Positions 2,720 to 21,627 of a stretch of 29,553 bases of DNA are shown piece after piece. The first letter of the stretch is position 1; each line of letters opens with the position of its first letter. The notes below the pieces were generated by a model. It was given only the letters and a program-made list of their open reading frames with translations. It searched no databases and had not been told where the DNA came from. Position numbers and translations under genes: made by a program. Source of the stretch: a virus; IMG/VR virus record IMGVR_UViG_3300020463_002175, positions 1 to 29,553 of that record. One strand, 5' to 3'.

Positions 2720-3451
2720 ATGAATAAAAATCAATTAACTAATTTCATTAACAAATACACATTAGGTGGAGAAATTCAATCTACCAAATGGGTTTCCAAT
2801 GGTGATAATTTAACAACAAGATTTATCTCAGGTGATAAGTCAGTTGTTGGAAAGGTTGTTCTCAGTAAATTTAAACATCTTGAACCTTGTGAATTAGGTG
2901 TTTATAGCACAGGACAATTATCTTCATTATTATCAGTATTGGGTGATGATGTTGATGTAAGTTTATTACGAGCAGGTGATAAGTTTATTTCTATGGAATT
3001 AGAAGATACTAAAAGAAAAACAAAATCTAAATATATGTTGAGTGATTTGTCAGTTATACCAACACCACCAGAACTTAAGAATCTACCAGATTCATTTGAG
3101 TTGGGTATCAAGGTAGACGCACATTTTATCAATACATTTATTAGTGGTAAGGGTGCTTTGTCAGACGCAGAAACCTTTACGATATTAACTGATAACGACA
3201 AGGCAGAAATTGTGATTGGATATGCAAGTATCGCATCTAATCGTGTAACAATTCCAGTTGAAACTACAAAGTTCAAAATGATGGAACCAATCTCATTCAA
3301 CGCCAATATGTTCGCATCTATTCTACAATCAAACAAAGATTGTGAAAGTGCAACATTAGAAGTTAGTTCACAAGGGTTATCAAGAATTAAATTCTCAATC
3401 GATAATTACGATTCAGAATATTTCTTGGTATCAACACAAGCAGTTAATTAA
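2720..3451 (+). CDS. 45: Sliding clamp, T4 gp45-like
   Basis: Ring-forming processivity factor that tethers the polymerase to DNA; in T4 it also activates late transcription with gp33 and gp55. The 243-residue product is slightly longer than T4 gp45 (228 aa). It shows the family's alternating beta-strand pattern, an interior region around residues 100-120 (KYMLSDLSVIPTPPE) and a C-terminal strand FSIDNYDSEYFLVST. Identification rests on overall sequence character and on direct linkage between gp43 and gp44, as clamps have few invariant motifs. The ATG follows AGGAG with normal spacing. The stop overlaps the gp44 start by one base (TAATG), indicating coupled translation. Confidence 0.9.
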   Translation: MNKNQLTNFINKYTLGGEIQSTKWVSNGDNLTTRFISGDKSVVGKVVLSKFKHLEPCELGVYSTGQLSSLLSVLGDDVDVSLLRAGDKFISMELEDTKRKTKSKYMLSDLSVIPTPPELKNLPDSFELGIKVDAHFINTFISGKGALSDAETFTILTDNDKAEIVIGYASIASNRVTIPVETTKFKMMEPISFNANMFASILQSNKDCESATLEVSSQGLSRIKFSIDNYDSEYFLVSTQAVN

Positions 3452-4374
3452 TGGAAAGTCTAAAACATAGTTTATGGGTGGAGAAATACCGTCCAAACAA
3501 GTTAGACAATTATATCGGTAATGACCATTTAAAATCCAAGGTGTCGGTATATTTAGAATCAGGAGATATACCACATCTATTATTATTTGGTAGAGCAGGA
3601 ACAGGTAAAACTACTCTTGCCAAACTACTGGTCAATAATATAGATTGTGATTACCTTTATATAAACGCATCTGATGAGAATAGTGTAGATGTAGTTCGTG
3701 AGAAAGTAAAGAACTTCGCATCAACATTAGGTTTCAAAGATATGAAAGTTATTATCTTGGACGAGTGTGATTACATTACACCAAACGCTCAAGCAGCACT
3801 TCGTAATCTTATGGAAACTTTCTCTAAGAATTGTCGTTTTATCCTAACTTGTAATTATGTGGAAAGAATAATTGACCCGATACAAAGTCGTTGTCAGTCA
3901 TTCCAGATAGTTCCACCAGACAGAAAACAAGTCGCACAACATTTGGCAAACATATTGACAAATGAAGAAGTTCAATATGATGTTAAAGATATAGCTACCA
4001 TTGTAAATGGTGGTTATCCAGATATCAGACGAGTAATCAATGGTGCTCAAAGACAGGTCGTAGATTCTAAACTAATGATTGATGAAAATACTATTGTTCA
4101 AAATGATTATAAAAATCAAGTGATGGATATATTGAAAACACAAGATAAAAAGAATTCATTTAAAAACATTAGACAATTGTTGGCAGATTCAAAAGTAACA
4201 GACTTTAGTGATTTATTTAGACTAATGTTTGATACGGTTGATGAGTGGGGAGCAGGACACATCGCTGAGTGTATATTGATTTTGAGTAAATACCAACAAT
4301 CAGACGCAGTAGTGGTTGATAAAGAAATCAACATTATGGCTATGTTTGTAGAATTAATAGGGAGTATTAAATGA
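3451..4374 (+). CDS. 44: AAA+ clamp loader large subunit, T4 gp44-like
   Basis: ATPase that opens the gp45 ring and loads it at primer-template junctions together with gp62. Visible motifs: N-terminal WVEKYRPNKLDNYIG (9-23) typical of clamp loaders, Walker A GRAGTGKTT (47-55), Walker B IILDECD (101-107), sensor 1 LTCN ending at N135, and the SRC motif (146-148) that supplies the arginine finger in trans. The length of 307 aa is close to T4 gp44 (319 aa). It starts on the last base of the gp45 stop codon and ends four bases into the next gene (ATGA). Its usual partner, gp62, is not adjacent; a candidate lies about 7.4 kb downstream at 11760. Confidence 0.96.
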   Translation: MESLKHSLWVEKYRPNKLDNYIGNDHLKSKVSVYLESGDIPHLLLFGRAGTGKTTLAKLLVNNIDCDYLYINASDENSVDVVREKVKNFASTLGFKDMKVIILDECDYITPNAQAALRNLMETFSKNCRFILTCNYVERIIDPIQSRCQSFQIVPPDRKQVAQHLANILTNEEVQYDVKDIATIVNGGYPDIRRVINGAQRQVVDSKLMIDENTIVQNDYKNQVMDILKTQDKKNSFKNIRQLLADSKVTDFSDLFRLMFDTVDEWGAGHIAECILILSKYQQSDAVVVDKEINIMAMFVELIGSIK

Positions 4375-4625
4375 GTAATCCAAATGGACCAGTACCACCA
4401 AAAGTACAACCACAACTCGACTTGACAGACGCAGATACTATACAATGTGAGGATTGTGGAAACGCAGCATTCACACCGGCTTTCTTTTTAAAGAAGATAT
4501 CGGCGTTAGTATCACCAACAGGTAAAGAATCAATCGTTCCGATTCAAGTTTTTACTTGTGGTAGTTGTGGAAAAGTTCCACAAAATATGTTAGAGTCAGC
4601 AGGTTTAGCAAAACCAGGAGTGTAA
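4371..4625 (+). CDS. Small four-cysteine putative zinc-ribbon protein
   Basis: An 84-residue protein with two CxxC pairs: C26-E-D-C29 and C63-G-S-C66, separated by 33 residues. This is the spacing and residue style (CEDCGN, CGSCGK) of a zinc ribbon. The N-terminus is Pro/Gln-rich (NGPVPPKVQPQ) and probably disordered. I do not recognise a named family. It overlaps the gp44 stop by four bases (ATGA) and its own stop overlaps the next start by one, so it is made with the replisome genes. A role in binding nucleic acid or another replication protein is only an inference from position and fold. Confidence 0.75.
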   Translation: MSNPNGPVPPKVQPQLDLTDADTIQCEDCGNAAFTPAFFLKKISALVSPTGKESIVPIQVFTCGSCGKVPQNMLESAGLAKPGV

Positions 4626-5401
4626 TGAACTGGGTAAATAAACTCTGGAGACCACAAACAGGTAAAGAAATCGGACTTACAAAAGAAGATACATTTTTTA
4701 CTAAAAAGGTATTGGAATATGTTCATAAGTATTATTACGATAATATACAGATTCGTGAGAAAGCAGATAACATTGAATACTTGGGTGAAAGACCATTGTG
4801 GTTAAGTCAAACCACAAGTAGAGAAGTTGACCCGAAGTATAATGATATAAATGCACCACTACAAATTCATACTTTCGGAGATAGTTGGACATATGGTTGG
4901 GACATTGAACAAGAAAGAACCTTTACACACTTACTCGGAGATGAGAATACTTCAGTATGGAATCACGGAGCAGGTAAAACTGGACTGGATTATGCAGCAA
5001 AAAAGATAGCGGAAGTTTATCAAAAATATAAACATTACGAAAATGATAATTTCTTATATGTGATTACGGTTCCACACGCATTCAGAAGAATGCACTTTGA
5101 TGAACAAAATATTGGTCGTAGAAGTTGGGCAAAAGAAAACGCAATAAAAGAAACTGAATACAACCATTACTTGTACTTTTTACATCACTATGAACTTTTA
5201 AATAGTTTAGTCGGTAGGGATAAAATCATTTGGGGAACTTGGGATGCTGAAATACCACACGATAAAATGGATATATTTTTTGAAATACACGACTTCATCG
5301 GACCAACTCACCATCCAGGACCAATCGGTCATAGAAAGTATGCAGAAAAGATAAAGAATATTCTTAGAAAAAATGGTTGGTATAGTGAAGAACAAACATA
5401 G
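4625..5401 (+). CDS. SGNH/GDSL-type hydrolase-like protein, copy 1
   Basis: SGNH-fold enzymes are esterases or deacylases, often acting on acylated glycans. Seen in the 258 residues: FGDSWTYG with Ser87 as the expected nucleophile (block I), NHGAGKTGLD (113-122) as a block II glycine region, hydrophobic VITVPH (146-151), and THHPGPIGHRKYA (228-240) with H230 as the likely catalytic His. The Asp normally three residues before that His is replaced by Pro227, so the Asp of the triad is missing or displaced. Start chosen at ATG 4625, overlapping the upstream TAA by one base; an upstream in-frame ATG at 4565 would lie inside the preceding gene. The paralogue at 5902 shares most blocks, including GRDKIIWGTWD. 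Confidence 0.75.
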   Translation: MNWVNKLWRPQTGKEIGLTKEDTFFTKKVLEYVHKYYYDNIQIREKADNIEYLGERPLWLSQTTSREVDPKYNDINAPLQIHTFGDSWTYGWDIEQERTFTHLLGDENTSVWNHGAGKTGLDYAAKKIAEVYQKYKHYENDNFLYVITVPHAFRRMHFDEQNIGRRSWAKENAIKETEYNHYLYFLHHYELLNSLVGRDKIIWGTWDAEIPHDKMDIFFEIHDFIGPTHHPGPIGHRKYAEKIKNILRKNGWYSEEQT

Positions 5402-5909
5402 ACTTGGCAGTTTAGAATTTATACTTGACACAAAATCACCAACTGATGAGATGTTTAATCAATGGAGAGATGAATTCTTATCACTCTCACAAACTGATAA
5501 TTATAAAGTATGGATTACTGGTGGTTGGTTAGAGGATTGGGAAACTAACGATATCGATATTATACTGACCGGTAAACCTAATTACAAAGAAGTAAGAAAC
5601 TTATTGTATCAAGCCAGAATTATAGGTGTAAAGTATGGTTTACTAATTGACATATCACATTGGGATACAGAACCTTTATATATTTATGAAAACTATCCAA
5701 GTGCTTGGGGTGTAGGGAGTGGTGTTGAAAAGTTTGTAGTGGAAAAACTAAATGTAGATACCAAACTATTTATTAATGACGAACTAATAAAAGAAGTAAA
5801 AGAATATGAAAAAGTTATAAAGGGATTATACAGATACAAATTCACATACCCAACAAAAAAACAATTAACAAGAGATTATAAATCAAAACCAATATTATTA
5901 AATGGATAA
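5373..5909 (+). CDS. Nucleotidyltransferase-fold protein
   Basis: The 178-residue product contains ITGGWLEDWETNDIDIILTG (48-67). This is the G-G ... D-x-D signature of the polymerase-beta nucleotidyltransferase superfamily (G50-G51, D60 and D62). The substrate is unknown: the family covers CCA-adding enzymes, antibiotic nucleotidyltransferases and toxin-like enzymes. A third metal-binding carboxylate may be D74 or later, but I cannot fix it. The start overlaps the upstream gene by 29 bases if ATG 5373 is used; GTG at 5385 is an alternative and neither has a clear ribosome-binding site. It sits between two paralogous SGNH proteins, so it may have been carried with one of them or belong to the same pathway. 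Confidence 0.7.
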   Translation: MVGIVKNKHRLGSLEFILDTKSPTDEMFNQWRDEFLSLSQTDNYKVWITGGWLEDWETNDIDIILTGKPNYKEVRNLLYQARIIGVKYGLLIDISHWDTEPLYIYENYPSAWGVGSGVEKFVVEKLNVDTKLFINDELIKEVKEYEKVIKGLYRYKFTYPTKKQLTRDYKSKPILLNG

Positions 5910-6687
5910 AAAAATAAAATATAATGTAGAAAAGTTTTACTACGACAACCATAGAGTAACCACGAATGCAAGAGATGGTTATCCAGAAGGAGAACACGGA
6001 ATGAAACTTTATCAACACAAAGATGATGAAGGTAATTTTATTTATGTAAATGATGAAGGGGAGTATGTAAAATCTCATTTAGAAGCACTCAATATCTATG
6101 AAAATAACAATGGTAGATTAGAGGGTGGAAGACAACACGACCCAATCTATAATGACATTAATGCAAAATATCAAATCTATACTTTTGGTTGTAGTTGGAC
6201 TTATGGTTGGTGTTTAGAACAAGAACAATCATTCCCACATTTGTTAGGTGATAAGGATACGACAATTCATAATTATGGAGCAGGTGGAACAGGTTTAGAT
6301 TTTGCAGTCAAGACCTTATCAGAAGTTTACATACCAGAATCAAGACGACAAATATTTATCATTACGGTTCCACATTACTTTAGAAGAACTTGGTTTGATG
6401 ATGATGGAGTTGTTTATAAAGCTTGGGAAGTAAAGGAAAAAGTTGATATCAATGAGTATAACAATTATTACAACTTTCTACATCACTACAATATGTTGAA
6501 TACTTTTGTGGGTCGTGATAAAATCATATGGGGGACTTGGGACGGAGATTTACCACAAGATATGTTTGATGTAATTTTTGAAATAAATGATTATACCGAT
6601 GACAAAATACATCCAGGTCCAAAATCACACAAACAATATGCAGAACAAATAAAAAATGTATTACAAGATAGATTTAAAAAATTATAA
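5902..6687 (+). CDS. SGNH-type hydrolase-like protein, copy 2
   Basis: A 261-residue paralogue of the protein at 4625. Shared blocks: YTFGCSWTYGW with Ser98, NYGAGGTGLDFA (124-135), FIITVPHYFRR (152-162), GRDKIIWGTWDGDLP (204-218) and a C-terminal DDKIHPGPKSH. Here the D234-x-x-H237 dyad is intact, but the classic Asp of GDS is Cys97, giving GCS. Copy 1 shows the opposite pattern (GDS kept, D-x-x-H broken). GCS variants are common in phage members, so activity is still plausible. The first 80 residues are unlike those of copy 1. The start overlaps the nucleotidyltransferase stop by eight bases (ATGGATAA). Confidence 0.75.
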   Translation: MDKKIKYNVEKFYYDNHRVTTNARDGYPEGEHGMKLYQHKDDEGNFIYVNDEGEYVKSHLEALNIYENNNGRLEGGRQHDPIYNDINAKYQIYTFGCSWTYGWCLEQEQSFPHLLGDKDTTIHNYGAGGTGLDFAVKTLSEVYIPESRRQIFIITVPHYFRRTWFDDDGVVYKAWEVKEKVDINEYNNYYNFLHHYNMLNTFVGRDKIIWGTWDGDLPQDMFDVIFEINDYTDDKIHPGPKSHKQYAEQIKNVLQDRFKKL

Positions 6688-7108
6688 AAAAAAGGTAGTT
6701 CCATTTTACGATACATTTGACAATTACAAAAGTCTCAAATGGGAACAAGTAGAAATGTTATCAGAAGAATTGGAAAACTTTCAAGATTCATTTGGAAAAC
6801 CTTGGGATGAATGGGACTTAACGGATTTACAACATAGATTAAAAGATGATTGGAGTTTTTATTTAATTACAGATAATGTAGGAATAAAAGCTTGGTCGTT
6901 CATCGATTGGAGTAGGAGATATCCTTACTTATGTAATCGTTATGTTGTTCCAAAACATAGAAACAAAGGTTTAGGAAATGATTTAGTGTGGTTGAGGTGT
7001 AATGAAATTAAAGAACAAGGATATGATACCGCTATGATTAAGTTAGAGGATTGGAATAAACCAGCACTATCGGTTATGAAAGAGAATATCTTTACTAAAA
7101 TGGACTAA
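6656..7108 (+). CDS. GNAT-family N-acetyltransferase
   Basis: Transfers an acyl group from acyl-CoA to an amine. In the 150 residues the acetyl-CoA pyrophosphate loop is HRNKGLG (101-107) at the end of a strand YLCNRYVVP (91-99), followed by a helix (108-120), a strand DTAMIKLE and NKPALSVMKE (135-143), the usual N-x-x-A/S helix near the C-terminus. Motifs A and B are therefore visible. The N-terminal third is less typical. The start at ATG 6656 overlaps the previous gene by 32 bases; no better start appears in frame. Acceptor unknown; with the SGNH proteins next to it, sugar acetylation and deacetylation is a reasonable guess. Confidence 0.8.
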   Translation: MYYKIDLKNYKKKVVPFYDTFDNYKSLKWEQVEMLSEELENFQDSFGKPWDEWDLTDLQHRLKDDWSFYLITDNVGIKAWSFIDWSRRYPYLCNRYVVPKHRNKGLGNDLVWLRCNEIKEQGYDTAMIKLEDWNKPALSVMKENIFTKMD

Positions 7109-7113
7109 ATTGA

Positions 7114-7121
7114 TATTTATA
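7114..7121 (+). promoter_or_regulatory. TATTTATA element upstream of the Hint gene
   Basis: One of five notable gaps between genes in this window. TATTTATA lies 13 bases upstream of the ATG at 7135, just before AGGA (7125-7128). Read on the - strand it is TATAAATA, the T4 late-promoter box, but in the wrong orientation for this gene. The identical octamer occurs before the probable gp62 gene (11734-11741), with TATTTATT before gp43 and before the gene at 14341. Function is inferred only from recurrence. Confidence 0.3.
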
Positions 7122-7134
7122 AGTAGGAAAAATT

Positions 7135-9399
7135 ATGTCAGCTGAAACAAAAATAACAAATTTATTAAATTATATTACAGGAAGTGCAGGTGGATGGCCA
7201 TCAAACACTAATGTTAGTATCCTAATGGGTGTTGATTATTTTATAGAAACCGGTTCCAACAACATTTACTTTAGTGAAATGAACACTGCTTGTGGAGTGG
7301 GTGGTGAGTTATCAAGACAAGAGGATACTTTTGATAAGGTTTCTGATTATGCGAATCAACAGGGTTGTACAACCGCTTATGTGTATGGTCAAAACGATGA
7401 TGTTAAACATAACCCTTCATCATTTCAAGAACCATTGATTAGTTCAAGTTTTGCAAGACACAACATTTCGGTAAATTTTGAGTACAATGGAAATACATCA
7501 CACACTTATTTCTCACAAAGAGGACAAAATCAATTCACAGGAAGTTTTCATCTCTGGATGCAAACACCTTGGTTTAGTGATGACACATTATTAAACATAG
7601 CGAGTGGTTCGTTTAATAAAGGTTCTTTTAGAAACATTGTTTCATCTTCACCAGAAAGTGATAGTTTAATACCTTTATTTGATAAAGATAATTACACACC
7701 CAATACTAACTTTCCAGATTATGTAACAAAACAACCAACAGCTCACTCTTCATTAGGAACTCATAGTATAGGATTTAAAAAATATCAATCAGGAACTACC
7801 ACTTATCAAGATGCGGTGGATAGTGGTTACATAACTGAAAAGTTTATAGTATCGAGTGGTGGTTATAGTGGTGGAAGAGGACATTTACTTACAAATAAAA
7901 AATACTATTGGGTGACACCAACAGAGATTATAAATGCTGGACAGGATATTGACCAAAGTGTAACTTACTCAAGTCAGTTCATTATGTCGGGAAGTGAAGC
8001 ATATCATCCACAACCAAGATTTTTAAGAATAGTGGCGAGTGGAAGTTTAGTCAATATGTATGACAATTCAACAAAACAAATCCAAGATGTAGAAGTCGGT
8101 GATGTTGTTAAATCATATCAACCGATTGGTATGCCAGATGAATCAGAGGGTATAAATTGGGAAAGTTATACAACAACAGATTTAAGTGGTTCATTTTCTT
8201 CCGGTTCTATTGTCATTGAAACAACAAATAAACAAAGTTATGGATATTATTTAATCAACGGAAGTATAAAAGTTCCAGCAGTTCCACACACTATGCACGG
8301 AGGTGGAAAATTCTTTTGTAAAACAGGAGATACTTGGAGTTGGAAACAATCAAATGATATATCAGTAGGAGATTACTTTTTAAATAGTGATGGTAGTGAG
8401 TTAGAAATTACATCAAAAACTGATGTTCTATCAGATGAAACATTTTATGGATTAAATGTTGAGGACATTGATACATACTTTCAATCAAATATATTAGTTC
8501 ACAATATTCCACCATTTTGTTTTGTAGAGGGGACACCAATCACAATGGGTGACGGAACTACAAAAGCGATAGAACTTATTGAAGTAGGTGATGAAATTAA
8601 AAATTATGACTTTGATACAAAAGAAATCAAAGTAGGTAAAGTGTTATCAATCGATACACCAACACACGCAGATATCATAGAGATTAGTTTTGGTGATAAA
8701 AAAACAAAGAACACATTTGACCACCCATACTGGATAGTTGGAAAAGGTTGGTCATCATACAAACCACAATGGACAGAAAAAAGATATAACATTAAATCTG
8801 AACAATTAGAAGTTGGAGATAAATGCTTAGAACTTCAAGGTAATAAAATTGTAGAAACCAATATAACAGACATCCAAGAAGACATTAATCCAGTTCAAAC
8901 ATATTCATTAGGGGTAGAAACACACAAAAATTATTTCGCTAACGATATGTTAGTTCACAACAAAGGAAGTTTTTGTTTCACTTATGAAACTATGATTACA
9001 TTAGCAGACGGGACATATCAACCGATATGTAAAATTAGACCAAATGATATGATAAAAACATATGATGTTGAAACTGGTAAATTACAAAATTCAAAAGTGT
9101 TAGAAACCGTAAAAGTTCTACACGACAATATGGTTACATATAAATTTAATGACAATACAAAAATTGAGGCAACTGATGACCACCCATTTTACATAGTTGG
9201 GGATTCCGAAGTAGATTCAGATTACAGACCATTAACTATTGGTGATGTAGTATTGAATGACGAATTACAAAAGATAGAAGTTGTCAATATAGAGGTAAAT
9301 AATGTGGAAAAAATTACATACAATATCAATAGAACTGATAATGGTAAAAATTATTTCGCAAATAGGGTTTTAGTTTCTGATGAGTTTGATACAGAATAA
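7135..9399 (+). CDS. Large protein with three tandem Hint (hedgehog/intein) domains
   Basis: 754 residues. Residues 1 to about 295 form an unrecognised domain; FSEMNTACGVGG (about 46-57) faintly recalls the Mg-binding E-x-N of ATP-grasp enzymes. Then come three Hint self-processing modules. Hint1 (about 299-457) starts IVASGSLVNMYD and ends LVH456N457; it lacks a Cys or Ser at the first position. Hint2 (462-609) starts C462FVEGT, has TFDHPYWI, and ends LVH608N609, so it is complete. Hint3 (614-754) starts C614FTYET, has DDHPFYIVG, but ends RVLVSDE without His-Asn. Four-residue linkers IPPF and KGSF separate the modules. Expected chemistry is acyl shift at Cys and Asn cyclisation, giving splicing or cleavage. 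The ATG follows AGGA. It may be a virion or secreted protein matured by autoprocessing (inference). Confidence 0.85.
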   Translation: MSAETKITNLLNYITGSAGGWPSNTNVSILMGVDYFIETGSNNIYFSEMNTACGVGGELSRQEDTFDKVSDYANQQGCTTAYVYGQNDDVKHNPSSFQEPLISSSFARHNISVNFEYNGNTSHTYFSQRGQNQFTGSFHLWMQTPWFSDDTLLNIASGSFNKGSFRNIVSSSPESDSLIPLFDKDNYTPNTNFPDYVTKQPTAHSSLGTHSIGFKKYQSGTTTYQDAVDSGYITEKFIVSSGGYSGGRGHLLTNKKYYWVTPTEIINAGQDIDQSVTYSSQFIMSGSEAYHPQPRFLRIVASGSLVNMYDNSTKQIQDVEVGDVVKSYQPIGMPDESEGINWESYTTTDLSGSFSSGSIVIETTNKQSYGYYLINGSIKVPAVPHTMHGGGKFFCKTGDTWSWKQSNDISVGDYFLNSDGSELEITSKTDVLSDETFYGLNVEDIDTYFQSNILVHNIPPFCFVEGTPITMGDGTTKAIELIEVGDEIKNYDFDTKEIKVGKVLSIDTPTHADIIEISFGDKKTKNTFDHPYWIVGKGWSSYKPQWTEKRYNIKSEQLEVGDKCLELQGNKIVETNITDIQEDINPVQTYSLGVETHKNYFANDMLVHNKGSFCFTYETMITLADGTYQPICKIRPNDMIKTYDVETGKLQNSKVLETVKVLHDNMVTYKFNDNTKIEATDDHPFYIVGDSEVDSDYRPLTIGDVVLNDELQKIEVVNIEVNNVEKITYNINRTDNGKNYFANRVLVSDEFDTE

Positions 9400-10006
9400 C
9401 GATTTCAAATATTCAATTCAAATACCTACATTTTTATCACACGAAAAGTGTGATGAGTTGATAGAACAAATAACCAACACAGAACAAAAAGTTATTGGTG
9501 GTGTTGGTGGTGAAAAAGGTGAAGCAGCAATTATACCAGAGATAAGAGTTACTGAAGAATGGTATTTATTTGACCAACCAATCAATCCTTACAGACCAGA
9601 TAAATGTAATGGGGATTGGAAATGGTTACAAGACAAAATATATCAAGTTGTAAAAATGGTAAATCAAGGTGTTTTCAAGTTTGATATTGAAGGTGCTGAT
9701 GATGAATTGAAACTCATAAAATATCACGAGGGTGGATTTTATGGTTGGCATACAGATTTTAATGCAGGTAGTTGTTCAATTAGAAAACTTGTAGCAATAA
9801 TCCAACTAACAGACCCGAGTGAATACGAGGGTGGTGAAGTTCAATTTGGTATCCAAGATAAACATACAAAAGAGTGGTACTCAATGAACCAACTAAAAGG
9901 TTCTTTAACTATATTTCCTACATTCTTATCTCATAATGTAACACCAGTCACTAAAGGAACCAGATATGTTATACAAGAATTGTTCGTGGGAAATCACTTT
10001 AAATGA
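9380..10006 (+). CDS. 2OG-Fe(II) oxygenase, prolyl-hydroxylase type, copy 1
   Basis: Non-haem iron enzyme using 2-oxoglutarate and O2, of the prolyl 4-hydroxylase/PKHD type. In 208 residues the facial triad is H124-T-D126 (GWHTDF) and H185 (LSHNVTPV), with R195 (GTRY) to bind 2-oxoglutarate. IIQLTDPSEYEGGEVQF (140-156) is the characteristic strand-turn of the fold. All active-site residues are present. The start at 9380 overlaps the Hint gene by 20 bases and the stop overlaps the next gene by four. It is the first of four adjacent paralogues that share N-terminal F(Q/K)(W/Y/F)...FLS and a C-terminal G-x-x-F-K/R. Substrate unknown: a protein side chain, sugar or nucleobase are all possible. 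Confidence 0.9.
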   Translation: MSLIQNNDFKYSIQIPTFLSHEKCDELIEQITNTEQKVIGGVGGEKGEAAIIPEIRVTEEWYLFDQPINPYRPDKCNGDWKWLQDKIYQVVKMVNQGVFKFDIEGADDELKLIKYHEGGFYGWHTDFNAGSCSIRKLVAIIQLTDPSEYEGGEVQFGIQDKHTKEWYSMNQLKGSLTIFPTFLSHNVTPVTKGTRYVIQELFVGNHFK

Positions 10007-10509
10007 GTAAAGACTTTCAATGGTATCTTACAAGAGATAACTTTTTATCTCAAAAAGAGTGTGAAGAGGTTATAGAAATAATTGATACTAATCGTAATAA
10101 CTCAGATTCAACACAAGCGATAGAACTAAAAGAAGATAAATATTTAGACAAAGTTTGGAAGATTATGAAACTCTCAAATGATATACATTACAATTTTGAT
10201 ATTGATTGTGTTCAATTACAAGAGGGAAAGTATTACAAAAGGGGAGTTTACAAAGAGGAAGAAACACTACACTCAGACTTCGCAGCGGGACCAGATAGAT
10301 TAGTGGATGTTAATACAAAACTGACATCAGTTATTTTTTTGAATGATGATTATTGGGGTGGAGGATTACAGATTTGGAACGATAAAATAGAATCAAAACA
10401 AGGTAGGATAGTAATATTTCCGGCATTCGCAGCACATAAGGTTTTACAATTTCACGATAAGGATAGATATACAATGTTAACTTGGATACAAGGGAAAACT
10501 TTTAGATGA
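10003..10509 (+). CDS. 2OG-Fe(II) oxygenase, copy 2 (short)
   Basis: The shortest of the four paralogues, at 168 residues. The triad is H90-S-D92 (LHSDF) and H145 (AAHKVLQF), with R155 (DRYTML) as the 2-oxoglutarate ligand. The N-terminal DFQWYLTRDNFLS and C-terminal GKTFR match its neighbours. It has lost about 30 residues before the HxD motif relative to copies 1, 3 and 4, and GWH/DWH is replaced by TLH, so it is the most divergent. It still looks catalytically competent. It is joined to both neighbours by four-base ATGA overlaps. Confidence 0.87.
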   Translation: MSKDFQWYLTRDNFLSQKECEEVIEIIDTNRNNSDSTQAIELKEDKYLDKVWKIMKLSNDIHYNFDIDCVQLQEGKYYKRGVYKEEETLHSDFAAGPDRLVDVNTKLTSVIFLNDDYWGGGLQIWNDKIESKQGRIVIFPAFAAHKVLQFHDKDRYTMLTWIQGKTFR

Positions 10510-11099
10510 ACAATAACTTTCAATGGTTTACACACACACCTTTTTTGTCTAATGAACAATGTGATGATGTAATTAAGAAATTACAGGAAGAAACTAATTG
10601 GGTGTCTGGTTATGAAGGAGCTCATATTGTAAATGCAAATGAAAAGTCATTTGATAATGTAGTCAAGGATAGAACTTTTGTAGAATTATATGCATTCCAA
10701 AATACAAAACACGACTATACTTGGATTAATGATAAGTTGGAACCATATGTGGAAATGTTAAATAAACAAGTTTGGAACTTCAACATAAGTGGAGTATCAA
10801 AAGATTTAAAAGCGTTAAAGTATAGTGGTAGTGACAGATTTGATTGGCACGCAGACTATGATAAAGGTAAAGTATCAACAAATAAACTAACTTGTTTAAT
10901 CCAATTGTCAGATGAGAGTGAGTTTGATGGTGGAGATTTACATTTCGCATTTGTAAATGACGGAGAGTTTTTTAAAACACCATACAAAAAAGGATATGTA
11001 CTAATATTTCCATCTATCATTAGTCATATGGTCACAGAGTTAACGAATGGAGAGCGATATATTATGAGAGAAATTATTTCAGGAGAACCTTTTAAATGA
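10506..11099 (+). CDS. 2OG-Fe(II) oxygenase, copy 3
   Basis: 197 residues with H115-A-D117 (DWHADY), H174 (ISHMVTEL) and R184 (GERY), the complete iron and 2-oxoglutarate site. LIQLSDESEFDGGDLHF (131-147) is the core strand pair. The N-terminal NFQWFTHTPFLSNEQCDD and C-terminal GEPFK are shared with the adjacent paralogues. Four-base overlaps on both sides imply that the array is translated as a coupled unit. Substrate unknown; the variable loops around residues 30-60 and 148-160 differ most from copies 1 and 4, as expected if the copies have separate targets. Confidence 0.9.
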   Translation: MNNNFQWFTHTPFLSNEQCDDVIKKLQEETNWVSGYEGAHIVNANEKSFDNVVKDRTFVELYAFQNTKHDYTWINDKLEPYVEMLNKQVWNFNISGVSKDLKALKYSGSDRFDWHADYDKGKVSTNKLTCLIQLSDESEFDGGDLHFAFVNDGEFFKTPYKKGYVLIFPSIISHMVTELTNGERYIMREIISGEPFK

Positions 11100-11704
11100 T
11101 AAAGAAAAAAAACTTTCAGTTTGTACTACATAGAGAAAACTTTTTGACATCAGAACAATGTGATGAGTTAATAGAAAAGTTTGGACAATCTAATTCACAG
11201 AAATCCACTGTCGCAGGAACTTACAAAGGAGATGACTCGGATGTAATAAATGAAGAAGTTAGAAAAGTTCAAGAGATAAGATTAAAAAATGATGTGGTTT
11301 TATCAGACGGATTCAAATTGACAAAAAATATAATAATGGCGTGTGAGATGTCTAATTTACTTAATTTTCAATTTGACTTGAAAAAACCATATGAATTAGA
11401 AGATATCGTTGTTTTAAGATATCAAGATACTGATAAGTACGATTGGCATTTAGACATAGGTGATTGTTCTACTTCACTAAGAAAGATAACAGGTATAATC
11501 CAACTATCAGATGAAAATGATTACGAGGGTGGGGAGTTTGAATTTAGTATGTCAAACGATAAAGGAGATGATAATTGTTATGGTTCAAGGAAAAGAGGTT
11601 CATTAATATTGTTCCCTGCATACTTAGGACATAGAGTTAGACCAGTAACGAGTGGTGTTAGATATTCAATAGTTACTTGGATTCTTGGAAACTCTTTTAA
11701 ATAA
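11096..11704 (+). CDS. 2OG-Fe(II) oxygenase, copy 4
   Basis: 202 residues with H118-L-D120 (DWHLDI), H179 (LGHRVRPV) and R189 (GVRYSI). IIQLSDENDYEGGEFEF (134-150) is nearly identical in pattern to copies 1 and 3. The N-terminal NFQFVLHRENFLTSEQCDELIE and C-terminal GNSFK place it in the same paralogous set, closest to copy 1 by eye. It is the last gene of the array; a 55-base gap with a TATTTATA element follows, so the transcription unit may end or be re-initiated there. Confidence 0.9.
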   Translation: MIKKKNFQFVLHRENFLTSEQCDELIEKFGQSNSQKSTVAGTYKGDDSDVINEEVRKVQEIRLKNDVVLSDGFKLTKNIIMACEMSNLLNFQFDLKKPYELEDIVVLRYQDTDKYDWHLDIGDCSTSLRKITGIIQLSDENDYEGGEFEFSMSNDKGDDNCYGSRKRGSLILFPAYLGHRVRPVTSGVRYSIVTWILGNSFK

Positions 11705-11733
11705 TTTACATTTTCAGTTTCATACCAACTATT

Positions 11734-11741
11734 TATTTATA
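11734..11741 (+). promoter_or_regulatory. TATTTATA element upstream of probable gp62 gene
   Basis: An exact copy of the octamer at 7114-7121, here 18 bases before the ATG at 11760 and just ahead of AAAAGG (11745-11750). It lies in the 55-base gap after the oxygenase array. No clear -35 is visible. The - strand reading is TATAAATA, identical to the T4 late box. Recurrence in otherwise rare gaps is the only evidence for function. Confidence 0.3.
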
Positions 11742-11759
11742 TCTAAAAGGTTATTCACT

Positions 11760-12191
11760 ATGAAAACAAAAACACTATTTGACCATATAAAACAAATTAC
11801 TAATGTTCAGAACCAATTGTATTGGGATAACATTACAGAAGCGGACAAGAAAACTTGGTCCAATTATATGGTACATAGATTCTTGTCAATGAAACCAGAG
11901 TGGATAGAAGTTGTAAATGAAATACAACGATACTGGGAATTGAAACCAAAGTCGGTTTATCAATTCTATACAAATCTACTTCCGAGAGGAAATACATACT
12001 TAAGATATACGAAATCTAAAAAGAAATCTAAGATTGAAAAGTGGGCTATGGATATATTATGTGATTACTTTCAAGAAAGTTCACAAAATATTGAAAAAAC
12101 ACTTGACATTATGGGTAAAGATGTTGTATATTCAATTATATCAAAGTATGGTGTAGATGAGAAACAACTAAAAAAAATATGGAGTAAATGA
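11760..12191 (+). CDS. 62: Probable clamp loader small subunit, T4 gp62-like
   Basis: gp62 forms the clamp loader with four gp44 subunits and does not bind ATP itself. The 143-residue product has WSNYMVHRFLSMKPEWIEVV (33-52) and VYQFYTNLLPRGNTYLRYTK (66-85). The second resembles the LMAAVPRGKRYGKW segment of T4 gp62, and the first resembles marine phage homologues as I recall them. It is shorter than T4 gp62 (187 aa). The start is set at ATG 11760, after AAAAGG nine bases upstream; an in-frame ATG at 11685 lies inside the oxygenase gene and has no support. The identification is by pattern and by need for a partner for gp44. It overlaps the next gene by four bases. Confidence 0.7.
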   Translation: MKTKTLFDHIKQITNVQNQLYWDNITEADKKTWSNYMVHRFLSMKPEWIEVVNEIQRYWELKPKSVYQFYTNLLPRGNTYLRYTKSKKKSKIEKWAMDILCDYFQESSQNIEKTLDIMGKDVVYSIISKYGVDEKQLKKIWSK

Positions 12192-12610
12192 TGGCGATTA
12201 AAGACGCACCTACAAAAGTAGGAATACCAAAGGCAACCTTAACCAAAGAGGACCAGGAAATGGTAGACACACAAGATGTTGTAAGATATATGGAGAGAAC
12301 TTATCCTGAAATGACAGGTGAGTTTCTAAAAATACAATCAGAACAATATGAATTGTTTTGTAGAAAACAATATGATTATGGTCCACAAAATATAGCAGTA
12401 GGAACAATTCTAAAAACACCAGAGGATATTAAATTATCGTTGTTAGGATTGTGGTTCAGAATGAACGACAAGATAGAAAGAATGAAAACATTATTATTGA
12501 GAAATGGAACAAACTCAGTTGAGGGAGAACCAGTAACAGATAGTTTTTCAGATGTGTCAAACTATGGAGTTATGGCACAAGTAGTAGCGAGGGGTAAATG
12601 GGCAAAATAA
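12188..12610 (+). CDS. DUF1599 protein (nucleotide modification associated domain 1)
   Basis: 140 residues. The stretch FLKIQSEQYELFCRKQYDYG (46-65) followed by NIAVGT, TPEDIKLSLLGLWFRMNDKI (78-97) and a C-terminal DVSNYGVMAQVV is the pattern of DUF1599, also called Nmad1, a family found in phages and predicted to be linked to nucleotide modification. It is mostly helical. The exact reaction is not known to me. The start overlaps the gp62 stop (ATGATGG; the second ATG at 12191 is equally possible), and it ends 13 bases into the nuclease gene. Its location between replication genes fits a role in the nucleotide pool or in phage DNA. Confidence 0.75.
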   Translation: MMAIKDAPTKVGIPKATLTKEDQEMVDTQDVVRYMERTYPEMTGEFLKIQSEQYELFCRKQYDYGPQNIAVGTILKTPEDIKLSLLGLWFRMNDKIERMKTLLLRNGTNSVEGEPVTDSFSDVSNYGVMAQVVARGKWAK

Positions 12611-13431
12611 GTTATAGTCAGTTCGCAATGTGGGACAAATGTCCTTACACTTGGAAAGCAAATTATGTGGATAAAGCAGAAACTTTCAAAGGTAATATCT
12701 ACACATTATTCGGTAGTGCTATTCACGAAACTATTCAAGCATATTTGGTATGTTATTACGAAAGAACAATCAAAGAAGCAGATGAATTACCACTTCAAGA
12801 TATTCTAATCTATCGTATGAAAGAATTATACAAAGAAGCCAAAGAAAGATATGGTGACGGATTTGAAGTAACCAAAGAAGAAATGACAGAGTTCACTCAA
12901 GACGGATTCAATATTATTGATGAGTTCTTAAAGAGAAAGTCAAGTCACTTCAAAAAGAAAGATACTGAGTTAGTTGGTATTGAAATGAATTTAAACTATA
13001 ACTTACCTAAAGATATGAAGTTCGTTGGTTATATGGATGTTGTTCTACACGATAAGAAAACTGGTCGTATGAGAATTATCGATATCAAATCATCTACTAT
13101 GGGTTGGAACAAGTATATGAAAGCCGACAAGAACAAAACCAATCAGTTATTATTGTATAAACACTTTATGGCAAAACAATTAGAAATATCGGAAGATAAA
13201 ATAGATGTTGAATATTTAATATTAAAGAGAAGATTATATGAAAATATGATGTATCCACAGAAAAGAATTCAAGCGTTCTCGCCGGCAAGTGGAAAACCAA
13301 GTGTTAATAAGGTTATGAATAGGTTACAAGAGTTTATAGATGAGTGTTATGATGACAAAGGTAAAATCATTTCACACGACTATGAAAAATGTGAAAAACA
13401 CAAAAAGTGTAGAAGTTGTAAGGACTTATAA
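12598..13431 (+). CDS. PD-(D/E)XK nuclease, RecB/Cas4-like, with four-cysteine Fe-S-type motif
   Basis: 277 residues. Core motifs: FGSAIHE with H43, GYMDVVL with D147, IIDIKSST with D162 and K164, and Q183-LLLY (motif QxxxY), together the active site of RecB/Cas4-type exonucleases. C15 in the N-terminal DKCPYTWK and C265, C271 and C274 at the C-terminus match the one-plus-three cysteine arrangement that holds a 4Fe-4S cluster in Cas4 and AddB. N-terminal SYSQFAMWDKCPY is also typical of this class. Expected to process DNA ends during phage recombination-dependent replication. The start overlaps the previous gene by 13 bases; the stop TAATG overlaps the next start. Confidence 0.88.
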   Translation: MGKISYSQFAMWDKCPYTWKANYVDKAETFKGNIYTLFGSAIHETIQAYLVCYYERTIKEADELPLQDILIYRMKELYKEAKERYGDGFEVTKEEMTEFTQDGFNIIDEFLKRKSSHFKKKDTELVGIEMNLNYNLPKDMKFVGYMDVVLHDKKTGRMRIIDIKSSTMGWNKYMKADKNKTNQLLLYKHFMAKQLEISEDKIDVEYLILKRRLYENMMYPQKRIQAFSPASGKPSVNKVMNRLQEFIDECYDDKGKIISHDYEKCEKHKKCRSCKDL

Positions 13432-13925
13432 TGATAGAACCAGGTTTAAGAATTAAAGTAACAGACTTTTTAGCGACTGAATACGAACAAGAGGTATTTC
13501 AGGAACTGATGAAACTAAAACAATTACCGGATATGCAAGGAGTCGGCTTTCCATTATACTTCTGGTATGATAGAGAAAATGAAGCGGTAGACTTGAATAC
13601 ATTAGAACCATTTATTAAGTATTGGAAATCTTCAGGTGAACACGCAACTAAACTCACCATATATCCAGAACTATTTGACACTCAAAATGATTTTATTTGG
13701 TATGACATAAGACCAAGAAACTCAATTGACTATTTACCTAATCCAACACTTTCATATCTACAATATTACAGATTCGCATACCTTTACGATGACCCAAAAA
13801 TTGGAATACTTGAAGGTCTAAAAGACTTTTACAAAAAGTATAGTTTTGTAAATTCCAATGATTCATCCGAAACCAAGAAAAGAAAACAAAAAAGAAATGA
13901 CGATGAAGATAGCAATCATAGGTAG
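13431..13925 (+). CDS. Protein of unknown function
   Basis: 164 residues, not recognised. The first 140 residues are compact and aromatic-rich (FPLYFWYDRE at 40-49, NPTLSYLQYYRFAYLYDD at 103-120). The last 20 are a charged, probably disordered tail (SETKKRKQKRNDDED) that overlaps the start of the next gene. No signal peptide, membrane segment or catalytic motif is apparent. The PRNSIDYLPNPTLS stretch with many aromatics could suggest an oxygenase-like or beta-sandwich domain, but I cannot support that. It is coupled to the nuclease by a one-base overlap. Confidence 0.7.
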   Translation: MIEPGLRIKVTDFLATEYEQEVFQELMKLKQLPDMQGVGFPLYFWYDRENEAVDLNTLEPFIKYWKSSGEHATKLTIYPELFDTQNDFIWYDIRPRNSIDYLPNPTLSYLQYYRFAYLYDDPKIGILEGLKDFYKKYSFVNSNDSSETKKRKQKRNDDEDSNHR

Positions 13926-14301
13926 TAGGACCTACACCAATAAAAGAAACATTAAGAACTTTATGTTCCGATTGAAAATGGAACACCCAGGAGTTGAAGT
14001 AGTTAGTGGTGGTGCAAAAGACGGAGCAGATAAATACGCGAAGAAATTTGCATTAGAGTTTAAAATACCTTATAGTGAATTCCCACCACAACACCAAACC
14101 CACAATATGTATTGTGTAATGGAAGCTTACAATTATGGAAAACCTTACAATGTAGGTTATTATCACAAGAGAAATAAAGATTTAGTTAAATATTCAGATA
14201 AGGTTGTAGCATTTTGTAAAGACGGAGAGATTACCAACGGAACAAAATCAGCATTAGAATATTGTAAAAAAATAAATAAAAAATTCGTTATTTTGAGTTA
14301 A
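13897..14301 (+). CDS. DUF2493/YspA-like SLOG-family protein
   Basis: The Rossmann-like SLOG superfamily binds nucleotide-type ligands. Seen in 134 residues: N-terminal strand KIAIIGSRTY with GSR at 9-11, VVSGGAKDGAD (35-45), FPPQ, KRNKDLVKYSD (91-101) with the family RN pair, VVAFCKDG, and NGTKSALEYCKK, which is the GT motif near the C-terminus. This order matches DUF2493 proteins. Starting at ATG 13897 or 13903 gives a normal N-terminus; an in-frame ATG at 13858 lies inside the previous gene and would add a charged non-family extension. No good ribosome-binding site is visible. Role in phage unknown. Confidence 0.8.
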   Translation: MTMKIAIIGSRTYTNKRNIKNFMFRLKMEHPGVEVVSGGAKDGADKYAKKFALEFKIPYSEFPPQHQTHNMYCVMEAYNYGKPYNVGYYHKRNKDLVKYSDKVVAFCKDGEITNGTKSALEYCKKINKKFVILS

Positions 14302-14330
14302 ACTAACTATTTATTATATATACATATATA
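14293..14330 (+). promoter_or_regulatory. AT-rich promoter/operator-like region with inverted repeat
   Basis: TTGAGT at 14293-14298 and TATATA at 14317-14322 are 18 bases apart. TATTTATT lies at 14309-14316. The run of alternating T and A at 14315-14330 is broken by a single C and forms a near-perfect inverted repeat. The gene that follows encodes a small ribbon-helix-helix-like protein; such proteins often bind short inverted repeats in their own promoters. Low sequence complexity makes chance matches likely. Confidence 0.33.
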
Positions 14331-14340
14331 TAGGAACAAT

Positions 14341-14535
14341 ATGAAAGAAGAAAAATTAACATCAGTAAAAATCATAGATGAACTATACAAGAAGTTCAAA
14401 GAAAAGTCTATTCGTGACGACTTTTCATTACAAAAATTAGTAAATCGTAGTTTAGACTTATTTGTTTATGACGAAGAGTTCGCTAAGAAAGTCTTAGACT
14501 ATCAGAATTTAGAAGAGAGTGGTTCAAAATATTAA
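14341..14535 (+). CDS. Small ribbon-helix-helix-like DNA-binding protein
   Basis: 64 residues. The N-terminal KLTSVKIIDELYKKFKEKS gives a beta strand then a helix, and DDFSLQKLVNRSLDLFVYDE gives the second helix with the S-L-Q-K-L-V-N-R pattern of MetJ/Arc-type dimers. T7, V9 and I11 would be strand residues alternating toward and away from the DNA groove. The ATG follows AGGAAC. It has its own upstream gap with promoter-like elements and precedes the long glycosylation block, so it may regulate that block or its own transcription. The assignment is by fold pattern only. Confidence 0.65.
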   Translation: MKEEKLTSVKIIDELYKKFKEKSIRDDFSLQKLVNRSLDLFVYDEEFAKKVLDYQNLEESGSKY

Positions 14536-14550
14536 ATTAAAGAGGTTTTA

Positions 14551-15984
14551 ATGGATTTACCAAAATTAAAAAAAGTTACAGAAACACAAAAAAGAAAAAA
14601 GAAGAAAATTTTATTATTATCAGATGACTTGAGAATGTCAAGTGGTGTCGGTACAATGTCAAGAGAGATTGTTGTTGGAACTATTGACAAGTATGACTGG
14701 GTTCAACTTGGTGGAGCAATCAAACACCCAGACAAAGGAAAAGTTTTTGATATGAATGACTCTATGATTGAAGAGACTGGTATTCAAGACGCTTCATTAA
14801 AGATATATCCGATTGATGGGTATGGGGACCAAGAAATGTTAAGAAGTATTCTTGATATAGAAAAACCAGATGCTATTCTTCACTACACAGACCCAAGATT
14901 CTGGAAATGGTTGTATGATATGGAACACGAAGTAAGACAAAGTATTCCAATTTATTACTACAATATTTGGGATGACTTACCTTATCCAATGTGGAACGAA
15001 CCATTTTATGAGAGTTGTGATTTGATTATGAATATTTCAAAACAAACTCACAATATCGTTCAGAATGTATGCCAGAACAAACCAAGAACAGATTGGGATT
15101 CAACTTATGTTCCACACGGGATTAGTGAAAAATATTTCTATCCAGTAAAGAATGAAACAGAAAGATTAGAAATGAACAAAATGAAATCTGAATTATTTCA
15201 AGGTAAGGACATAGAGTTTTGTTTATTCTACAATAACAGAAATATCAGAAGAAAAATGACATCAGATACTATTCTGGCATTTAAAACTTTTGCAGACAGA
15301 CTACCAAAAGAACAAAGAGACAAGACGGCATTTGTATTACATACACAACCGATTGACCCAAACGGAACAGACTTACCAGCGGTAGTTGAAGAAATATGTC
15401 CGGACTTAAATATTATATTTTCAACCAATAAATTATCAGCACAACATCTGAATTATTTATACAACATAGCAGATGTCACGATTAATTTGGCATCCAACGA
15501 GGGATTCGGATTAGGAACTTGTGAATCTCTAATGTGTGGAACACCAATCATTGTTAATGTTACGGGTGGACTACAAGACCAATGTGGATTTAGATTGAAT
15601 GATAAATTATTAACTTATCAAGATTATAAAGATATACATTCACTACACGATTGGAGAAAGTGGGAACACAATGAAGACCTATCTCACGGAGAGTGGGTAA
15701 AACCAGTATGGCCTAAGACTCGTTCATTACAGGGTTCACCACCAACACCATATATTTTTGATGACAGAGCGGATTGGGTAGAAGTGGCAGACTCTATCCA
15801 ATACTGGTATGATTTAGGTAAAGAGCAAAGAGATGAGTGTGGATTCAAAGGACACGAGTGGGTTTGTGGTGATGAAGCGATGATGAGTGCAAGGGCTATG
15901 TGTGGTTTATTTATAGACCATATGGAAACTGCATTTGATAAATGGACACCAAGAAAAAGATTTGAACTTATGGAGGTAGTATAA
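14551..15984 (+). CDS. GT-B glycosyltransferase (GT4/group 1-like)
   Basis: 477 residues. After a basic N-terminus (LPKLKK at 3-8), KILLLSDDLRMSSGVGTMSR begins a Rossmann domain with a glycine loop. The C-terminal domain carries NEGFGLGTCESLMCGTPII with the E317-x7-E325 motif that binds the nucleotide-sugar in retaining GT4 enzymes, then a GG at VTGGLQDQ. Length and order fit a complete enzyme. Donor and acceptor are unknown; acceptor could be a glycan, a protein or modified phage DNA. AGAGG lies five bases before the ATG. Its stop overlaps the next glycosyltransferase by one base, and both proteins share the LPKLKK peptide. Confidence 0.88.
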   Translation: MDLPKLKKVTETQKRKKKKILLLSDDLRMSSGVGTMSREIVVGTIDKYDWVQLGGAIKHPDKGKVFDMNDSMIEETGIQDASLKIYPIDGYGDQEMLRSILDIEKPDAILHYTDPRFWKWLYDMEHEVRQSIPIYYYNIWDDLPYPMWNEPFYESCDLIMNISKQTHNIVQNVCQNKPRTDWDSTYVPHGISEKYFYPVKNETERLEMNKMKSELFQGKDIEFCLFYNNRNIRRKMTSDTILAFKTFADRLPKEQRDKTAFVLHTQPIDPNGTDLPAVVEEICPDLNIIFSTNKLSAQHLNYLYNIADVTINLASNEGFGLGTCESLMCGTPIIVNVTGGLQDQCGFRLNDKLLTYQDYKDIHSLHDWRKWEHNEDLSHGEWVKPVWPKTRSLQGSPPTPYIFDDRADWVEVADSIQYWYDLGKEQRDECGFKGHEWVCGDEAMMSARAMCGLFIDHMETAFDKWTPRKRFELMEVV

Positions 15985-17306: not shown

Positions 17307-17307
17307 T

Positions 17308-17760
17308 ATGGCAGAGATAAAAATAACTTGTCCAAATTGTTTCAATGATGAGAAGTGTTTTGAAGACAATCTGGAGATAGAAAAGTTCAGTTCTTTTATG
17401 TGTTTTAATTGTGGATTCACAAGTAATTCACTTTATAAAAACGATACAGAACATTTAACTAAGGTTCAAGAGTCTTCAACAGAATTAATGAATGAAATCA
17501 GTATGTATGATTATGACAGACAAATACATTGGTTTCCTTCTATATTGAATATGGGTAAAATGGGAATCATATATCCAGAAGGAACTAAAAACAACTGGAT
17601 ATGGAAGTTAGCAGAAGTTCGTAAGTTATCACCAGAGGAACAAAAAGACCCACAATATGAAGGACACGAACACACATTAGATATTGAGAATGCAAAAGAG
17701 TATGGACAATATGAATTCTTAGATGCGTGTAAAGAAATGGGAATCGTTAAAGAACTATGA
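17308..17760 (+). CDS. Zinc-finger-like protein of unknown function
   Basis: 150 residues. The N-terminal 36 residues have C8-P-N-C11, C17 and C32-F-N-C35, a zinc-ribbon arrangement; the rest is acidic with WFPSILNMGKMGIIYPEG (about 75-92) and EYGQYEFLDACKEMG near the end. I do not recognise a named family. It is linked to the next gene by a four-base overlap. A nucleic-acid-binding or regulatory role would be a guess. Confidence 0.72.
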   Translation: MAEIKITCPNCFNDEKCFEDNLEIEKFSSFMCFNCGFTSNSLYKNDTEHLTKVQESSTELMNEISMYDYDRQIHWFPSILNMGKMGIIYPEGTKNNWIWKLAEVRKLSPEEQKDPQYEGHEHTLDIENAKEYGQYEFLDACKEMGIVKEL

Positions 17761-18903: not shown

Positions 18904-18914
18904 GAGACACCATA

Positions 18915-21618: not shown

Positions 21619-21627
21619 GATTATAAA

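Follow-up and report, generated by a model that had tools for sequence, protein, structure and literature searches.

Why would a phage keep four 2-oxoglutarate (2OG)-Fe(II) oxygenase genes side by side, and on what would their products act? The question is raised by the IMG/VR virus record IMGVR_UViG_3300020463_002175, the whole of which (29,553 bases) makes up the window analysed here and which derives from an uncultured T4-like phage of probably marine habitat. Its four oxygenase genes, OXY1 to OXY4 (Table 1), follow a gene for a 754-amino acid (aa) protein with a predicted ATP-grasp fold and a run of Hint domains, and the array forms the variable portion of a more extensive cassette bounded by the clamp loader genes gp44 and gp62. 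The reading that we favour, with somewhat less than even confidence, is that the OXYs are peptidyl hydroxylases acting on a polypeptide of their own cassette, most likely the self-processing leading protein or what it releases.

All four OXYs passed the PF13640 cut-off of 27 bits (51.1, 44.3, 38.6 and 53.5 bits for OXY1 to OXY4) and matched PHROG_61, the phage 2OG-Fe(II) oxygenase family, at 1.8e-29 to 6.5e-37, or 2.3e-18 for OXY2. A six-frame search of the whole genome recovered OXY1, OXY3 and OXY4 but not the shortest copy, OXY2. Pairwise identity to OXY1 is 32-36% for the other three, and the columns of the HxD, distal H, R and C-terminal G-x-x-F-K/R do not vary among the four. The original prediction had described this C-terminal motif and an N-terminal FLS as shared by all copies; the former is indeed invariant, and the latter is found in OXY1-3 with FLT in OXY4. 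The genes were also said to be fused by 4-base overlaps, and an ATGA overlap is present at 3/3 junctions. Across 39 homologues of OXY4, H118, H179 and R189 are invariant and D120 nearly so. The HxD...H...R motif was recovered in 101/103 orthologues of OXY1, 20/21 of OXY2, 17/17 of OXY3 and 34/45 of OXY4, where the misses shown still have HxD..H..R, the search pattern having demanded Y, F or N after the R. The median ratio of non-synonymous to synonymous substitution rates (dN/dS) against relatives was 0.158, 0.148, 0.053 and 0.061 for OXY1 to OXY4, and 0.086 for gp62. All four OXYs are under purifying selection, near the level of gp62, and it is therefore untenable to regard them as chance or decayed open reading frames; the claim of four intact, adjacent oxygenases with a complete HxD...H...R site is upheld.

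The divergence of the copies is also old. In a tree of 74 sequences the OXY orthogroups were supported separately (OXY1 95/91, OXY2 100/97, OXY3 100/100, OXY4 100/99), with OXY2 in a separate 25-row clade (100/98) and OXY1 and OXY3 weakly sister to one another (96/66). On this tree each window OXY is its own deep orthogroup, common to an uncultivated T4-like phage group, and the divergence is therefore old, the copies being maintained and not recent duplicates. Approximately unbiased (AU) tests gave a p-AU of 0.54 for OXY1, OXY3 and OXY4 as one clade and 0.48 for all four, by which a single origin of either set is neither shown nor rejected. What had been predicted as four retained and diversified copies thus stands as regards retention, selection and old divergence, the AU tests leaving the suggested local duplication neither supported nor rejected. 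A four-sequence profile search of genome contigs for cellular relatives gave 163 pattern matches, none of them confirmed.

As to what kind of enzymes these are, a model of OXY4 (39-sequence alignment, pLDDT 90) superposed best on the Pseudomonas putida prolyl 4-hydroxylase (P4H) in complex with EF-Tu (4iw3; Z 20.1, 3.0 Å over 181 residues), giving it a P4H-type double-stranded beta-helix. PHD2 with a HIF peptide (Z 19.3), the Chlamydomonas P4H with (Ser-Pro)5 (19.1) and the PBCV-1 chlorella-virus collagen P4H, vCPH (18.5), all lie within about 1.6 Z units of it. The modelled fold places OXY4 in the peptide- or protein-hydroxylating branch of the 2OG-Fe(II) superfamily. Such a fold match alone indicates no particular substrate, and the OXYs are likened here to prolyl hydroxylases in their predicted working, not identified as such. 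OXY1-4 are accordingly taken to be hydroxylases that depend on 2OG and Fe(II), are probably active and have the structural type of peptidyl prolyl hydroxylases (P4H/PHD).

Gene order points to a partner. In loci pooled from searches with the OXY genes, gp62 and the ATP-grasp domain as queries, the next gene after the ATP-grasp/Hint gene is an OXY in 105/105 non-redundant loci with enough downstream sequence, so that the earlier hint at the self-processing neighbour is borne out. An overlap of 17-26 bases joins the two genes in 78 of these 105 loci, and one of 20 bases in the window. Among 91 islands complete to gp62, 58 hold three OXYs, 26 hold four, six hold two and one holds five; labelled by best blast match, OXY1 and OXY4 are each present in 91/91, OXY2 in 80/91 and OXY3 in 22/91. 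OXY3 is cleanly absent from loci L011 and L192, and OXY2 together with OXY3 from L040, the breaks falling at gene junctions. The 3'-ends of the OXYs are similar in sequence (CTTTTAGATGA, CTTTTAAATGA) and may serve as a short recombination site. One further locus, L189, is without OXYs and has only a 164-aa Hint protein at that place; it retains an SGNH-like gene after the oxygenase loss.

Exchange also affects the cassette as a whole. Between the window and locus L139, blastn identity is 97.0% over window positions 4190-5383, 95.7% over 11730-12194 and 97.7% over 12220-19084, whereas the block between the first two stretches holds just patches of 74-79% identity. With near-identical flanks and a diverged interior, the block must have been replaced as a unit. 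The original prediction had further supposed that the replication genes beyond the array might point to the target of the OXYs; this is not supported, those genes being merely the fixed borders of an exchangeable island.

Additional enzymes accompany the OXYs in many relatives. A radical-SAM protein follows them in 42/91 islands and an Asp/Asn-hydroxylase-like gene in 7/91; the window is without radical SAM. The radical-SAM proteins, of 690-738 aa, lie between the oxygenases and gp62 (e.g., L139:5868-7943), and an example matched PF04055 at 4.6e-11, with a B12-binding match under its cut-off; an example of the Asp/Asn-hydroxylase-like proteins was likewise identified with Pfam. A 127-aa SET-domain protein (PF00856 1.2e-8) lies inside the oxygenase array at L135:7340-7723. 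Small P-loop proteins recur inside arrays or on the stretch from the oxygenases to gp62 (L078:9210-9848, L162:4785-5384, L050:12611-13171), with weak or no match to sulphotransferase profiles.

The leading protein itself is composite. Residues 1-297, modelled with AlphaFold from 45 relatives, are predicted to adopt a circularly permuted ATP-grasp fold that superposes on 3kal with Z 12.8 and an rmsd of 4.8 Å over 258 residues; the top 27 structural rows are all ligases of glutathione synthetase, glutathionylspermidine synthase or YgiC type, and the next fold scores Z 6.5. The motif E48-x-N50-T51 is invariant across the 45 relatives. A Pfam search of residues 1-310 found no family and a PDB profile search no credible sequence match, and identity with glutathione synthetase at the sequence level was dropped on account of these failed searches. 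The resemblance is thus one of modelled fold only, and ligase activity is not claimed. In isolate phage records the ATP-grasp domain had no match, those to the leading protein covering the Hint part only.

The remainder of the protein consists of Hint domains, assigned from the PT-HINT and Intein_splicing profiles together with Ser or Cys at position 1 and a terminal HN, which Hint 3 is without. Among relatives, the last two residues of Hint 1 are HN in 118/118 and its first residues GS in all 76 that were matched; the two positions after the HN are IP or LP in 118/118, mostly as I-P-P. Since most HN sites are not followed by Cys, Ser or Thr, intein chemistry suggests cleavage rather than splicing, and we infer from the sequence that the leading protein cleaves itself at its Hint domains. 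The number of tandem Hints varies from 1 to 4 among relatives, in length steps of about 148 aa. A further Hint relative is found in phage NCTB (L274, 1566-5480), where a 1304-aa 'large intein domain protein', its Hint 31.9% like Hint 1 of the window, adjoins tail-fibre genes.

Table 1. Positions of the features discussed, in the window unless a locus is named.
Feature	Position	Strand	Details
DNA polymerase	155-2659		T4-type replisome gene, left part of window
Sliding clamp	2720-3451		T4-type replisome gene, left part of window
gp44-like clamp loader subunit	3451-4374	+	Left fixed border of island; PHROG_168 2.8e-87
Exchangeable block	5384-11729		Replaced whole in L139 (blastn)
ATP-grasp fold domain (predicted), residues 1-297	7135-8025	+	Circularly permuted; model pLDDT 85, pTM 0.84
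Hint 1, residues 304-457	8044-8505	+	Ser1, ends His-Asn (translation)
Linker, Hint 1 to Hint 2	8506-8517	+	I-P-P-F
Hint 2, residues 462-609	8518-8961	+	Cys1, ends HN; Pfam Intein_splicing 7e-12, best stretch 472-609
Linker, Hint 2 to Hint 3	8962-8973	+	K-G-S-F
Hint 3, residues 614-754 plus stop	8974-9399	+	Cys1, C-terminal SD replacing HN; PT-HINT 1e-14, stretch 620-741
OXY1, P4H-like 2OG-Fe(II) oxygenase	9380-10006	+	208 aa; PF13640 2.8e-13; H124xD126, H185, R195
OXY2, shortest copy	10003-10509	+	168 aa; PF13640 3.7e-11
OXY3, accessory copy	10506-11099	+	197 aa; PF13640 2.1e-9
OXY4, P4H-like	11096-11704	+	202 aa; PF13640 5e-14; H118xD120, H179, R189
gp62-like clamp loader subunit	11760-12191	+	Right fixed border of island; PHROG_225 3.9e-14
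Exonuclease	12598-13431
ATP-grasp/Hint-like proteins of L042 and L045	L045:8349-11018; L042:6782-9436
Freshwater ATP-grasp/Hint-like family	L050:6081-7586 and loci L275-L314

Two other lineages carry proteins of similar layout. In L042 and L045, which belong to one sister T4-like lineage, a divergent protein of 884-889 aa adjoins an OXY; in L045 it stands toward gp44 in the same island. This protein has the E-x-N-T motif, a Hint-like region and a C-terminal tail of 318-320 aa, in which proline makes up 10.9% (L042) and 11.9% (L045) of residues, against 3.0% and 3.7% in the body. A search for relatives of the long-extein protein of L045 returned its own contig only. The freshwater set, found from L050, comprises a 501-aa protein of like layout with an invariant IEHN followed by a hypervariable tail of 31-55 aa. 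These tails contain 18.7% cysteine and 11.1% proline (0.6% and 2.9% in the body), with an even number of cysteines (6, 8 or 10) in 28/28, and in pairs whose bodies are 82-90% identical the non-cysteine tail identity is 16-66%. By its sequence the freshwater protein resembles a precursor that would release a disulphide-rich peptide by self-cleavage. Most freshwater loci have oxygenase genes within 7 kb, and L050 has a radical-SAM gene as well. Of 23 PF13640 hits on 12 large freshwater contigs, about 10 fall within 7 kb of the ATP-grasp/Hint-like gene, where a hand calculation gives about 3 expected (Poisson p 0.001).

It is the P4H-type fold, the fixed linkage, and the proline enrichment or invariance after the Hint in three lineages that lead us to prefer a polypeptide of the cassette as the OXY substrate. 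The leading protein would cut itself at its Hint domains, exposing or releasing proline-containing segments, and the linked OXYs would oxidise residues, probably prolines, of this polypeptide or of a product made by the ATP-grasp domain. Where an island also encodes a B12-type radical-SAM, SET or Asp/Asn-hydroxylase-like enzyme, this might add further marks. The product would then be modified differently from cassette to cassette, and this would account for the swapping of cassettes between near-identical phages.

Several points weigh against this proposal. Enzyme activity, Hint cleavage and the benefit to the phage are all inferred, and so is the substrate of the OXYs. The main weakness lies in the window itself: in its family the segments after the Hints are only about 2-5 residues long, and the proline at +2, instead of being a target, could have a role in the Hint fold. 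No glycine-rich ATP loop is evident, and the ATP-grasp domain is possibly inactive. Owing to the relatedness of the 105 loci, their counts are not independent events, and a cross-table of Hint number (1-4) against OXY number showed no obvious link. An ATP-grasp/Hint gene of the window type was not recognised at 17/17 distant OXY loci with enough upstream sequence, L042 and L045 among them; the coupling is not universal, and many phages have OXY arrays alone. For the freshwater and window proteins, profile alignment of the Hint parts gave a probability of 66% (E 5.6e-5), while hhalign of the ATP-grasp parts gave 2.9% over 58 columns; as judged from these alignments, common descent is likely for the Hint part and unproven for the remainder.

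A bolder version of the same proposal would have the system work like the maturation of ribosomally synthesised and post-translationally modified peptides (RiPPs). The ATP-grasp/Hint protein would replace leader and protease, the Hint would free a proline-rich product (cysteine-rich and hypervariable in freshwater), the OXY array and radical-SAM or other enzymes would modify that product, and cassettes would be swapped as arms-race modules. Linked tailoring enzymes of the RiPP kind are present, as 2OG oxygenases in all cases and as radical SAM in 42/91 relatives. In the window, however, no precursor with a hypervariable core peptide was found, nor a separate small gene in the cassette; beyond the window, the freshwater family alone showed a core-like hypervariable peptide. 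We regard this extension as possible but rather unlikely.

Alternatively, the OXYs might hydroxylate virion proteins generally (tail fibre, baseplate or adhesin) for variation in host range or receptor, with the ATP-grasp/Hint protein a component of the virion or an adhesin. Related OXYs do adjoin a tail fibre gene in DLP_6, baseplate genes in PhiXhv-12, neck genes in HTVC008M and a structural protein gene in P-SSM7, the large Hint relative of phage NCTB has tail-fibre genes for neighbours, and the exchange of cassettes resembles tail-fibre swapping. However, the window island is located among replication genes, and the N-terminus of the leading protein is modelled as an ATP-grasp ligase fold and not a fibre fold. 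We consider this explanation unlikely.

Tailoring of a small molecule, sugar or surface glycan, in which hydroxylation of a metabolite or glycan precursor by the OXYs would go along with the action of the glycosyltransferase and nucleotide-sugar genes downstream, is distinctly unlikely. The window does contain, at 14551-29341, a long series of glycosyltransferase, nucleotide-sugar epimerase, SIS, cupin, CMP-sugar synthetase-like (cytidylyltransferase), DUF2334 and methyltransferase genes, and a cyanophage cluster with several 2OG oxygenases has been put forward as the possible source of a halogenated metabolite or of polysaccharide decoration (PMC7824862). The best structural matches are nevertheless peptidyl hydroxylases, and in L139 the glycosyltransferases GT1 and GT2 are 97-100% identical although the oxygenase block is replaced, which indicates that the two gene sets vary independently.

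Host reprogramming through hydroxylation of a host protein, such as a translation factor in the manner of Pseudomonas P4H on EF-Tu, would accord with the top structural match of the OXY4 model. With PHD2, the algal P4H and vCPH so close behind, that match is not specific to EF-Tu, and the ATP-grasp/Hint linkage and block exchange would be left unexplained; we therefore hold this to be improbable. Oxidation or repair of nucleic acid by enzymes of AlkB or TET/JBP type is very improbable: DNA repair has been proposed for cyanophage 2OG oxygenases (PMC3037559) and the island does lie among replication genes, but a Pfam scan gave no Tet_JBP (PF12851) match for any window OXY and an AlkB-type PF13532 score for OXY3 alone (13.5 bits, under the 31.2 cut-off), whereas all four passed PF13640 well and the modelled fold is of P4H/PHD type. 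As a class, 2OG oxygenases normally tie the turnover of 2OG to a primary substrate. Least credible of all is that the OXYs, with little substrate specificity, mainly alter cellular 2OG to influence host nitrogen control, as put forward for cyanophages (PMC3037559), since this requires neither several conserved orthogroups nor a fixed ATP-grasp/Hint linkage.

The island surrounding the array runs from gp44 through two SGNH-like genes, a nucleotidyltransferase-like gene and a GNAT gene to the 754-aa Hint protein and OXY1-4, and gp62 starts 55 bases downstream of OXY4. The SGNH and nucleotidyltransferase labels are a reading of the sequence, while GNAT is over its Pfam cut-off. The two SGNH-like genes (4565-5401 and 5902-6687) contain an FG[DC]SWTYGW motif, and for neither did a Pfam family exceed its cut-off. 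The nearest isolate phage is Microcystis phage Mel-JY01, which is without the gp44-gp62 island; its polymerase identity of 43.5% is too distant for a host assignment, which was dropped.

Some annotated phage genes may belong to the same superfamily. P-SSM7 PSSM7_034 (L207:2538-3116), annotated as DNA endonuclease V, scores 31.7 bits against the PF13640 cut-off of 27 and has the HxD...H motif, by which its denV label (T4-GC 100) looks wrong. Pelagiphage and cyanophage 'ferrochelatase' genes with H-x-D...H-W-R (L202:3225-3845, L197:6179-6820, L208:3459-4103, L209:2594-3160) may likewise be further 2OG oxygenases, in which case the reported pairing of oxygenase and ferrochelatase would be altered; the three scanned (L202, L197 and L209) matched no Pfam family.

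Marine phages very commonly carry 2OG-Fe(II) oxygenases, to which current ideas assign a role in DNA repair, 2OG drawdown or unspecified auxiliary metabolism. The fixed ATP-grasp/Hint linkage supplies a concrete candidate for the substrate, within a single operon that is amenable to testing in Escherichia coli. Should the peptide reading be true, it would represent a phage-borne pathway of post-translational modification in which Hint self-cleavage takes the place of a leader protease.

Compared with known systems, the array is closest to the phage oxygenases of PHROG_61 (T4-GC 104/240/412/611 of cyanophages and pelagiphages), which all four window OXYs match and which likewise occur in adjacent arrays. 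Cyanophages have up to five 2OG oxygenases per phage (Sullivan 2010, PMC3037559), multiple and often adjacent copies are known in pelagiphages (PMC9599517), and we found adjacent copies in the isolate records of S-SM1, HTVC008M, S-RSM4, HTVC023P and HTVC033P. The original prediction's contrast between single oxygenases, common in marine T4-like phages, and four retained copies must therefore be qualified, multi-oxygenase arrays not being unusual. The window OXYs differ from those of PHROG_61 phages in forming their own orthogroups and in being led by an ATP-grasp/Hint protein not found in isolate records. With the peptidyl prolyl 4-hydroxylases (P. putida P4H, PHD2, algal P4H and PBCV-1 vCPH) they have in common the HxD...H motif and, by prediction, the fold and membership of a peptide-binding class, but identity is just 15-24%. 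The PKHD-type hydroxylase PiuC is among the best PDB sequence-profile matches to the window OXYs; it differs in being a chromosomal iron-uptake factor (according to its PDB title) encoded by a single gene with no array, and its Z of about 17 is below those of P4H and PHD2. The glutathione synthetase, YgiC and glutathionylspermidine synthase group resembles residues 1-297 of the leading protein in fold and E-x-N-T motif, whereas the latter has about 10% identity to it, no evident glycine-rich loop and a fusion to 1-4 Hints. Bacterial intein-like (BIL)/Hint domains have the same Hint profiles, Cys or Ser at position 1 and terminal HN; in the window family the residue after the HN is commonly I, L, K or S, and 1-4 Hints stand in tandem behind an ATP-grasp domain. 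The cyanophage metabolite cluster of Iyer et al. (2021, PMC7824862) also combines several 2OG oxygenases with other tailoring enzymes, but includes carbamoyltransferases and a halogenase, none of which was noted in the cassette family of the window. No description of a phage ATP-grasp/Hint fusion with a 2OG oxygenase array was found in the literature searched, and it is this coupling, together with the block exchange, that appears to be new, phage oxygenase arrays being already known.

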